From the IMG/VR virus record IMGVR_UViG_3300028676_000040, positions 1-20,435 of that record: a stretch of DNA of 20,435 nucleotides. One strand, 5' to 3'. This document shows positions 6,900-20,424 of the stretch, piece by piece. The position numbers and the translations under genes are program-made. Source of the DNA: a virus. The notes beneath the pieces are model-generated. The model saw only the letters and a list, made by a program, of their open reading frames with translations, searched no databases and was not told the origin of the DNA. Positions within the stretch are counted from its first letter, which is position 1, and each line of letters opens with the position of its first letter.

Positions 6900-6904
6900 T
6901 ATAT

Positions 6905-6912
6905 TTTATTTT
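6905..6912 (-). promoter_or_regulatory. AAAATAAA leader before the gp6-like start
   Basis: Exact AAAATAAA on the minus strand, 5 bases before the ATG at 6899, overlapping the TAA stop of the gp25-like gene. There is no Shine-Dalgarno sequence. It is one of five identical leaders in this window and is probably a translation-initiation element. Confidence 0.6.
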
Positions 6913-7268
6913 ATTAAAATTCCTAGATATTTTGTACCATCTATCGATATATCTATTAAACACATATCTCTGGCTGTACCTTTATAAAATTCTACCGATA
7001 TCTTCACAGTAAATTCACCAGCATCTGGACAATATCTGTATATAGCAGTAGATATTTTCTCTTGTATTGCTACATTACTTAAATTGGTGGAAAATACGAG
7101 GGATTCAATATCGATTCCGAATGCTAGATCATTTATTATTTCACCGGGTTTGGTAAATAACAACATTCTGATCTGACCTATAAGATTTTCCAATGATGAT
7201 TCTATCTCATATACATTTTCTACGTATAGTGCATCATCAGGATTTCTTGTATAAAGTTCTTTAAGCAT
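6906..7268 (-). CDS. Baseplate wedge protein, gp25-like
   Basis: 120 residues; T4 gp25 is 132, so this is full length. The diagnostic segment is IGQIRMLLFTKPGEIINDLAFG (about 30-51), matching the GPW/gp25 family pattern of a hydrophobic helix, then L(F/L)T-x-PGE and an FG pair. A beta-rich second half follows (FTVKISVEFYKG, then MCLIDISIDGTKYLGILIK). gp25 sits in the inner baseplate against the hub and sheath and links wedge to sheath initiation. Its gene directly precedes the gp6-like gene. It is the first gene after the structured intergenic region and terminator at 7310-7488, so it should have its own promoter; AGATATATA lies 16 bases before the ATG. The leader AAAATAAA is at 7275-7282. 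Confidence 0.88.
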   Translation of the reverse strand: MLKELYTRNPDDALYVENVYEIESSLENLIGQIRMLLFTKPGEIINDLAFGIDIESLVFSTNLSNVAIQEKISTAIYRYCPDAGEFTVKISVEFYKGTARDMCLIDISIDGTKYLGILIK

Positions 7269-7274
7269 ATTGGA

Positions 7275-7282
7275 TTTATTTT
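7275..7282 (-). promoter_or_regulatory. AAAATAAA leader before the gp25-like start
   Basis: Exact AAAATAAA on the minus strand, 6 bases before the ATG at 7268. It stands in free intergenic DNA rather than overlapping a stop codon, so here the motif is not a by-product of an upstream Lys-stop end. Confidence 0.6.
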
Positions 7283-18460: not shown

Positions 18461-18462
18461 TC

Positions 18463-18470
18463 TTTATTTT
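18463..18470 (-). promoter_or_regulatory. AAAATAAA leader before the 453-residue gene
   Basis: Exact AAAATAAA on the minus strand, 2 bases before the ATG at 18460, overlapping the Lys-Lys-TAA end of the gp27-like gene. Confidence 0.5.
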
Positions 18471-19930
18471 TTATTTGGTGGTACTGGCCATTCTCTTCGT
18501 AGAAGTGTAAGTTTCTGTTTTAAAAGACCCATTTCATAAATGTACTCTATTGCGTCTATAACATAGAAACCAGAATAAAACTTATCTACAGCTAATAGAT
18601 CTTGATCGGTTTGTGATTGTCCTGATTTATCGTCAGATTCTTCAGTCTGATTAGCTTGTTTTCTTGATTGATCTCGTTCTATTACGATTAGAACTGGGAT
18701 GACTTGAAATCTTCTCAAGTTCATATTTACTCCTTCTAATGTGACATCAAGACTCAGTTTCTGTAAATGTAAAAGATTTTGATAATTCCAAGATTTTGCA
18801 TACAGATATTTAGAGTGGCAATTCTCACCATTTGCTCCATATACTGTACCCATCCAATCATGTGAAACATACATGTCTTTTTGATCTTCTGCATTTCTAC
18901 CTCTTAAAAGATATTTATCTTTCTCTGCTCCAGGAGTTGTCTTAGGGTCAGATAAGAATACTATCTTTTCTTTTAGAAGTGAATCATAATAATGCATATA
19001 CTTCATATATCCTGCATGAAAGTTGATCGCATTTGCAAAATTCTTCTGTTCATAATTAGCTATCCTAAACTTAGAAAATTTAGCTGATGAGCTATTCGTC
19101 AACATAATGTTACTTTCATGTTTCATTAGCTCCATGAAATCATCATAATCTGATGAAAACGTTTGCATATCTACGCCTAATTCAAAACCAGGCGTAAGTG
19201 AGAACAGAGGATCAACATTGACAAAATTAAGATGATAAAAGACATCTATAAAAGTCTTGAAAAAAGAATCCTCATTCTTCCAAGCTGAATTAGATATTTC
19301 TTTTACATAGTCAATCTTTTTCTGATACGGTGAAATCCAAGTTTGGTCGTCAGAAGTATCAGTTTCATTTGTTGCGAAGCCAATTTGTAATTCTTGAGAT
19401 ATTTTATGTAGTACATCTATACTTTTTCCAGAATTAAATTGACATTTCTGGCTATTCATACCCGGTACATATAAAATACCAGCAATGTACATATTATCAT
19501 ATCCTGTTTCATTTCTTGATGAATCTATTCTTACACTTGTTATATAATAGTCATTTCTAATAGGTTTCAGTAAATCATCCTTAGAACGTACAAATATTGA
19601 AACTATATCGCCATCTTTTGGAAATGATGTAGAATATACAACTTTATTTCTTATTAGCAGTGTCAAATCTAGTCTTGGTAAGAAATCTGTCGAATAAATA
19701 CGCATCGATACTATATCTACACCTCTATAGTATACTTTATTCATGTATACTAGAGGCATATCACCAGCCACAGCTTTTGTGTATTTTACAGGGCCCTGAT
19801 TATCAGGGCCAATAGTCTGATTAGTACCATATTCTGTATCAATCACTGACATTTCATCAAGTAAAATAGAGGGTTTGGCTACTTGCTTTATTATTTGTAA
19901 CTGATTAACGTTTTCTGCTACGCTATTCAT
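18464..19930 (-). CDS. Baseplate hub protein, gp27-like (tail protein D-type)
   Basis: 488 residues (T4 gp27 is 391). After a low-complexity N-terminus, a beta-barrel hub domain begins near residue 58 (MPLVYMNKVYYRGVDIVSMRIYSTDF) and includes GDIVSIFVRSKDD and NDYYITSVRID (about 107-136). A spacer then leads to the classic hub insert: SIDVLHKISQELQIGF (about 170-185), the DQTWISPYQKKIDYVKEI segment (195-212) and DSFFKTFIDVFYHLNFVNVDP (221-241). The order helix, W-x(2)-P, helix and LNF is typical of gp27/VgrG hub folds. It is directly upstream of the tube-like and gp5-like genes, as expected for the hub. Residues 427-450 (RDQSRKQANQTEESDDKSG) form a charged loop. The ATG at 19930 overlaps the previous stop (TAATG), and the leader is GAAATAAA. 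Confidence 0.65.
   Translation of the reverse strand: MNSVAENVNQLQIIKQVAKPSILLDEMSVIDTEYGTNQTIGPDNQGPVKYTKAVAGDMPLVYMNKVYYRGVDIVSMRIYSTDFLPRLDLTLLIRNKVVYSTSFPKDGDIVSIFVRSKDDLLKPIRNDYYITSVRIDSSRNETGYDNMYIAGILYVPGMNSQKCQFNSGKSIDVLHKISQELQIGFATNETDTSDDQTWISPYQKKIDYVKEISNSAWKNEDSFFKTFIDVFYHLNFVNVDPLFSLTPGFELGVDMQTFSSDYDDFMELMKHESNIMLTNSSSAKFSKFRIANYEQKNFANAINFHAGYMKYMHYYDSLLKEKIVFLSDPKTTPGAEKDKYLLRGRNAEDQKDMYVSHDWMGTVYGANGENCHSKYLYAKSWNYQNLLHLQKLSLDVTLEGVNMNLRRFQVIPVLIVIERDQSRKQANQTEESDDKSGQSQTDQDLLAVDKFYSGFYVIDAIEYIYEMGLLKQKLTLLRREWPVPPNKK
19792..19810. repeat. 9-bp GC-rich inverted repeat in the gp27-like gene
   Basis: GGCCCTGAT (19792-19800), one T, then ATCAGGGCC (19802-19810), about 120-139 bases after the start codon, coding for GPDNQGP. 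A strong hairpin is predicted in the mRNA. It has the same 1-base-spacer geometry as 2871-2889 and 16205-16221. Confidence 0.5.
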
Positions 19931-20424
19931 TATTTATTTCTGTTTTTGATTAATCTAGATAAGAATTCACTTTTACTTAAAGGCTCTGCACATTCTTCTT
20001 TTCCTCTTACTACATCTTTTCCAAAATATACTTTTCCTCCTACTACTGTGATTTCTCTTTCTCCTTCTTCGGCAATATTAGGTGGCAATAAAGAACCCGG
20101 TATAGCAGATTGTTCTGCTCTTTTCTTCATAGCTTCTGATGAACGAACTTTTTCAGCTTCTTGTCTTTTTGCTTCGACTAGAGAAAGTCTTCTATCAGTT
20201 AGAGATTTTTTACTGGTATTGATATACTGTTGTCTTACACTTTCTACTGCGGCATTCAATTTAGCTGAAGCTGTATTATTTGTAACCATCTCATCTGCTG
20301 GGCCAGAGATAAACACATCTCCTTCATCTATACTAAATGGATTAGATATACCGTTATGTTTAAGTACTAAATCATACATCTGTGTAGATGCATAGAAATT
20401 AGCTGATAAAACATCAGGTCGCAT
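19930..20424 (-). CDS. Baseplate wedge protein, gp53-like with N-terminal LysM-like domain
   Basis: 164 residues from the ATG at 20424. The frame stays open to the window edge 11 bases further, so a longer N-terminus cannot be excluded. Residues 1-45 (RPDVLSANFYASTQMYDLVLKHNGISNPFSIDEGDVFIS) show the layout of gp53/LysM baseplate proteins: a short helix, an aromatic/aliphatic helix with L-x-N-x-I-x-N-P, then I-x-E-G-D-x-(I/F). The middle (about 70-110) is a highly charged helix (RRLSLVEAKRQEAEKVRSSEAMKKRAEQ), and the end has a short beta motif (REITVVGGKVYFGKDVV). gp53 joins neighbouring wedges around the hub. The leader AGGGAGAGGAA is the only purine-rich, Shine-Dalgarno-like sequence before any start in this window. 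It overlaps the gp27-like start by one base. Confidence 0.6.
   Translation of the reverse strand: MRPDVLSANFYASTQMYDLVLKHNGISNPFSIDEGDVFISGPADEMVTNNTASAKLNAAVESVRQQYINTSKKSLTDRRLSLVEAKRQEAEKVRSSEAMKKRAEQSAIPGSLLPPNIAEEGEREITVVGGKVYFGKDVVRGKEECAEPLSKSEFLSRLIKNRNK
19933..19940 (-). promoter_or_regulatory. GAAATAAA leader before the gp27-like start
   Basis: GAAATAAA on the minus strand, 2 bases before the ATG at 19930. It matches the AAAATAAA leader at seven of eight positions. It lies inside the end of the gp53-like gene. Confidence 0.4.

Follow-up and report, generated by a model that had tools for sequence, protein, structure and literature searches.

A recurrent 8-mer, AAAATAAA, lies close ahead of several start codons in a 20,435-base virus record, and the question raised by this locus is whether the word is a new, exact-sequence element that replaces Shine-Dalgarno (SD) sequences, or one spelling of a looser signal. 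A preliminary description had favoured an exact 8-mer at tight spacing, optimised by the phage and perhaps combining translational coupling with S1 binding. A loose A-rich start region is already known from Bacteroidota (Flavobacterium, Prevotella), and the comparisons described below show that AAAATAAA, where it precedes genes, is a genuine start signal but no novel element defined by its exact sequence.

The phage fragment and its recurrent word

The window, meaning the whole 20,435-base stretch that was analysed, comes from a T4-like phage, of which it is a 20-kb piece; its major genes all lie on the minus strand. These encode a PhoH-like protein, a large tail protein, gp53-like, gp6-like and gp25-like proteins (the latter two being wedge proteins), a neck-type protein, a gp5-like hub and others; the gp53-like name rests on position and size, the sole PHROG match not being one of known function. 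Ranked by gp6, the nearest named relatives are LR756500.1 (462 kb, 42% identity), the Lak phages and the 635-735 kb genomes LR756501/02/03/04 and LR745206, followed by Tenacibaculum, Sphingomonas, Flavobacterium and Chryseobacterium phages. The closest kin of the window phage are the Bacteroidota “Mahaphages”, which here comprise LR756500.1, the Lak phages and the phages of 635-735 kb. Phages above 634 kb together with Lak were described as the “Mahaphage” clade and predicted to infect Bacteroidetes (Al-Shayeb et al. 2020, PMC7162821). A 29-kb contig extends the window and appears, from a 100% identical gp6-like protein, to be the same phage; a search by gp6 alignment yielded just three more contigs. 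LR756500.1 keeps the window gene order from the 488-aa gene through the large tail gene. Since the window record is a fragment supplying 14-20 leaders, with computed starts, LR756500.1 and other phages were used as a larger sample, their genes being mechanical calls (longest ATG open reading frame of at least 90 aa, overlaps settled by length). The features that bear on the question are as follows.

5244-6899, minus strand: baseplate wedge protein (gp6-like), 42% identical to LR756500.1
6905-6912, minus strand: AAAATAAA, 5 nt before the gp6-like ATG at 6899, overlapping the upstream TAA stop
6906-7268, minus strand: gp25-like baseplate wedge protein
7275-7282, minus strand: AAAATAAA, 6 nt before the gp25-like ATG at 7268, intergenic
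7285-7292, minus strand: GATATATA, a candidate promoter word of the phage, ahead of the gp25-like start
7731-7738, minus strand: AAAATAAA, 4 nt before the ATG at 7726 of an 83-aa gene, overlapping the upstream stop
10541-10548, minus strand: AAAATAAA, 4 nt before the inferred ATG at 10536 of a 484-aa gene, intergenic
10557-10564, minus strand: GATATATA, a candidate promoter word of the phage, ahead of the start at 10536 (484-aa gene)
10581-10609, minus strand: intrinsic terminator-like hairpin of 13 pairs, directly after the S1-like gene and before GATATATA
10630-11793, minus strand: ribosomal protein S1-like, with three S1 stretches and an rpsA-like part at residues 149-381; in synteny with LR756500.1
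18463-18470, minus strand: AAAATAAA, 2 nt before the ATG at 18460 of a 453-aa gene, overlapping the upstream stop
19933-19940, minus strand: GAAATAAA, a one-mismatch copy 2 nt before the ATG at 19930 of a 488-aa gene

The five exact copies lie on the coding strand precisely where the preliminary description had placed them, with spacings of 5, 6, 4, 4 and 2 nt, three overlapping an upstream TAA and two intergenic, and its sixth, one-mismatch copy was likewise recovered. For the start at 10536 the ATG was inferred; the reading frame called mechanically begins with TTG at 10578, at the 3′ end of the terminator-like hairpin. The purine-rich leader of the ATG at 20424 is internal coding sequence (19930-20424, minus strand), because the true start lies outside the window: in the 29-kb contig the 210-aa gene ending at 19930 starts beyond it.

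Over both strands of the whole window there are 10 copies of AAAATAAA against 6.2 expected. The coding strand holds six, five of them at starts and the sixth (7658-7665) within a gene. With curated starts, 5/14 window leaders carry the word, compared with a mean of 0.57 in dinucleotide-shuffled leaders (0/5000 shuffles reach 5) and a mean of 0.045 when the starts are shifted along the strand (0/20000 reach 5); none of the 108 internal ATGs is preceded by it. The word therefore marks starts, as had been claimed. Its spacing in the window is not fixed, and it is one among several equivalent A-rich words.

Several observations concern individual genes. The gene at 7732-8328 (minus strand) has a weak match to 2′-5′ RNA ligase/LigT-type phosphoesterases and a weak match, below the family cut-off, to the Acb1 (anti-CBASS protein) family. 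The 484-aa protein (9082-10536, minus strand) has no PHROG or Pfam match, a syntenic LR756500.1 homologue (35% identical) and a weak pentapeptide-repeat signal around residues 387-435. Recoding of the window genes was rejected, as none ends in TAG or has an in-frame TAG; among the eight relatives checked, TAG readthrough was seen in Lak-A1 only.

Properties of the A-rich element

In LR756500.1, AAAATAAA is present in 84 of 506 leaders of 30 nt (16.6%), about twice the expected 37-42 (36.7 in shuffled leaders, 38-41 in position-specific Markov simulations), whereas 1.4% of internal ATGs carry it; the count against shuffled controls and internal ATGs that the preliminary description had called for thus gives an excess at starts in both the window and LR756500.1. 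A null that keeps A-run lengths yields 46±6 leaders, leaving an excess of about 1.8-fold, which argues that in the LR756500.1 lineage some further factor favours a single long tract with U at its centre; A8 itself is depleted (8 versus 27 expected). Since the excess stands over all composition nulls in LR756500.1, it reflects more than base composition, and homopolymer avoidance or composition alone was rejected because the excess survives run-length-preserving shuffles.

The position and strand of the word point to the message. In LR756500.1 it peaks sharply at −18 to −7 from the start, its reverse complement TTTATTTT is flat, and operon-first (30/162) and operon-internal (55/304) genes carry it equally often, which together support a role in translation and argue against a promoter or stop-start coupling.

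The sequence requirement is loose. Relative to noncoding upstream DNA of LR756500.1, AAATAAAA is enriched 7.5-fold and AAAATAAA 6.9-fold, the flanking forms AATAAAAA and AAAAATAA are enriched 5.5- and 4.6-fold, and enrichment falls with A content, from 3.7 for words of 6A+2T to 1.6 for 4A+4T and 0.27 for U-rich words. Tracts broken by C show strong enrichment in Tenacibaculum phages (15.6-fold in pT24, 5.5-fold in PTm1). The element in the mRNA is therefore A-rich and graded, and cannot be reduced to a single word. A sequence-specific 8-mer at fixed spacing, as previously proposed, does not describe it: near-words are equally enriched, and most LR756500.1 copies have their first base somewhere between −17 and −9. 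At orthologous starts of LR756500.1 and other phages the 8-mer is mostly missing at the same place, and AAAATAAA can therefore be said to turn over. In short, the element is a tract rich in A, as a rule broken once, that lies about 7-18 nt ahead of the start codon; A is favoured at −3 as well.

Host-type leaders and the phage S1-like protein

The A share of LR756500.1 leaders is 62-65% at −13 to −11 and 60% at −10, that of the window leaders reaches 93% at −12, and that of the 29-kb contig is 69% over −13 to −10. The same peak (56% at −13 to −10) is found in Flavobacterium sp. Leaf82 and Marinifilum flexuosum, and A at −3 is common to LR756500.1 (62%), the window (71%), Flavobacterium (59%) and Marinifilum (53%); one baseline genome, an insect endosymbiont, is without the −3 peak. 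At −6, LR756500.1 has about 50% A and no local peak.

SD-like words show no start enrichment in the 29-kb contig (0.00 near starts, 0.05 far upstream) or in LR756500.1 (0.04 and 0.10), in contrast to the positive controls T4 (0.77 and 0.08) and Staphylococcus phage K (0.76 and 0.15). Across the Bacteroidota phages and host-type genomes compared, such words near starts do not exceed the far-upstream background, the exception being parity in LR756504 (0.07 near, 0.06 far). The SD-less A-rich leader is common to Bacteroidota bacteria and other Bacteroidota phages, and the earlier suggestion of A-rich, SD-independent initiation fits both the SD counts and the A profile.

These leaders resemble those described by Baez et al. 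2019 (PMC6847099), who reported A enrichment at −14 to −11 and showed with reporters that adenines at −3, −6, −12 and −13 stimulate initiation in Flavobacterium johnsoniae. Prevotella bryantii has A/T enrichment at −13 and does not use SD (Accetto and Avgustin 2011, PMC3155529). Both studies consider that ribosomal protein S1 might read the leader. With this Kozak-like initiation region of Bacteroidota the phage element shares the lack of SD, A at −12/−13 (−13 to −10 in the phage) and at −3, strand specificity and occurrence before leading as well as internal genes. It differs in that the A tract of the phage lineage is in many cases longer and has one U at its centre; no preference at −6 is clear in this lineage. 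An SD element is likewise a short purine-containing region ahead of the start, but the phage element is without anti-SD complementarity and is loose in both position and sequence.

The label “phage-optimised” is not supported, as Flavobacterium and Marinifilum share the A profile and a start-proximal excess of AAAATAAA, although the 8-mer is about 2-5 times commoner in the window phage lineage than in the bacteria compared. Its leader frequency is 20% in the 29-kb contig, 16.6% in LR756500.1 and 3.6-6.6% in host-type genomes, a baseline of two to four genomes that differ in base composition.

A rival account of the word is that an S1-like protein encoded by the phage has a preference for leaders of the AAAATAAA type and directs ribosomes to the mRNAs of the phage. 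The S1-like gene sits inside the baseplate gene cluster of the window, in the same order as in the LR756500.1 baseplate cluster, S1 domains are present in all six Mahaphage-type relatives tested, and most of these genomes have AAAATAAA in excess. Al-Shayeb et al. 2020 also noted that huge phages carrying rpS1 rarely have SD (PMC7162821). The protein matches PF00575 in three stretches and TIGR00717 over residues 149-381 (2.2e-22), far below the 577-bit equivalog cut-off, and the TIGR00717 alignment contains no rpsA match before residue 149, where an N-terminal, ribosome-anchoring domain 1 would be expected. A single-sequence AlphaFold2 prediction (pLDDT 32.5) was meaningless.

Steering by the phage protein is nevertheless unlikely. 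Five smaller phages, PAU, PTm1, MaF61, pT24 and MA9V-2, have no S1 domain and yet have equally SD-less leaders with the same A peaks; MA9V-2 even has an excess of AAAATAAA (15 versus 7.2), and the host-type genomes are alike. S1 carriage is therefore not needed for A-rich leaders, nor does it explain the SD-less state, and phage S1 was rejected as the cause of the leaders. The comparison covers eleven phages and ignores kinship. The record of PAU labels it a Sphingomonas phage; by its leaders and gp6 it falls among the Bacteroidota phages, and the outcome is the same when it is left out. The window phage thus matches the published huge-phage rpS1 system in clade, S1-like gene and lack of SD, but S1-lacking Bacteroidota phages carry the same leaders and host phylum can account for the SD-less state. 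A narrower proposal, that the Mahaphage S1-like protein and long U-interrupted A-tract leaders are co-adapted so that phage-modified ribosomes would prefer AAAATAAA-type over host leaders, likewise seems improbable.

Candidate promoter words, stop codons and the proposed reading

A promoter role, such as that of a T4-type late promoter, was considered for the superficial likeness of AAAATAAA to TATAAATA and its site ahead of late structural genes. This is highly improbable: a promoter 2-6 nt before the ATG would leave almost no leader, and the −18 to −7 peak has no operon-first preference. Other words behave otherwise. In LR756500.1, GATATATA (14/162 operon-first versus 3/304 internal) and ATATTTAC (18/162 versus 4/304) mostly mark operon-first genes and peak at about −36 to −19; GATATATA is for this reason a candidate promoter word of the phage. 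At comparable positions the Mahaphage relatives prefer ATATATAA/ATATATAG.

Translational coupling, in which an upstream Lys-TAA stop is joined with the next start, drew on the stop overlap of 3/5 window copies, and in LR756501 AAAA-TAA-A is indeed more frequent at those TAA stops after which a start comes (7/88 versus 1/116). In LR756500.1, however, only 14/103 copies overlap the called upstream stop, and a nearby upstream stop has no influence on frequency (15.4% with, 14.8% without), so that the coupling part of the earlier proposal is very hard to sustain. A pure base-composition artefact of A-rich intergenic DNA is scarcely credible either: leaders of about 50% A are expected to hold many A-rich 8-mers, but nulls keeping composition, dinucleotides, position or A-run lengths give 37-46 leaders where 84 are seen, and the strand-specific peak and the enrichment over other noncoding upstream DNA are found within the same genome.

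A separate observation concerns the noncoding, locally G+C-richer stretch at 7305-7475 (minus strand), which separates the 83-aa gene from the gp25-like gene. It holds a two-hairpin element (ACGG-NTTAGGA-CCGT, ATAGC-NNCG-GCTAT) with a conserved core at 7358-7389 (minus strand), followed by an intrinsic terminator at 7321-7355 (minus strand) whose stem varies and whose loop mostly keeps UCGCUA. The core pattern was found in 48 IMG/VR contigs, some of which are the window phage itself, usually 7-17 nt past a stop codon and in a few contigs just past a tRNA gene. The LR756501 version has a paired G-C to A-T change, and the element has no Rfam match. Together with the terminator it is a candidate new phage 3′-end RNA element.

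The reading preferred here is that AAAATAAA is very probably the form most often taken, in this phage lineage, by an A-rich initiation region that replaces SD for Bacteroidota ribosomes. As single-stranded mRNA, the A-rich tract may keep the start site unstructured and/or may contact the 30S platform near host bS1. Initiation would thereby be raised, by analogy with the effect of adenines at −12/−13, −6 and −3 in Flavobacterium johnsoniae. The exact 8-mer, its spacing and the stop overlap would stem from A+T richness, limits on A runs and tight gene packing, and none would need a sequence-specific recognition site. Under this graded reading, changing AAAATAAA to AAATAAAA or AAAACAAA is predicted to have no effect, a change to UCUUUCUU to cause strong loss, and changes of A at −3 moderate loss.

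Because S1-less Bacteroidota phages have the same leaders, host phylum offers an explanation for the published association of rpS1 with missing SD; the sequence comparison is suggestive that it can account for this link, at least in the present sample. Very large Bacteroidota phages follow the SD-free start rule of their hosts, and one lineage exaggerates it. The A-rich start rule can help in annotating start sites and in expressing genes in Bacteroidota.
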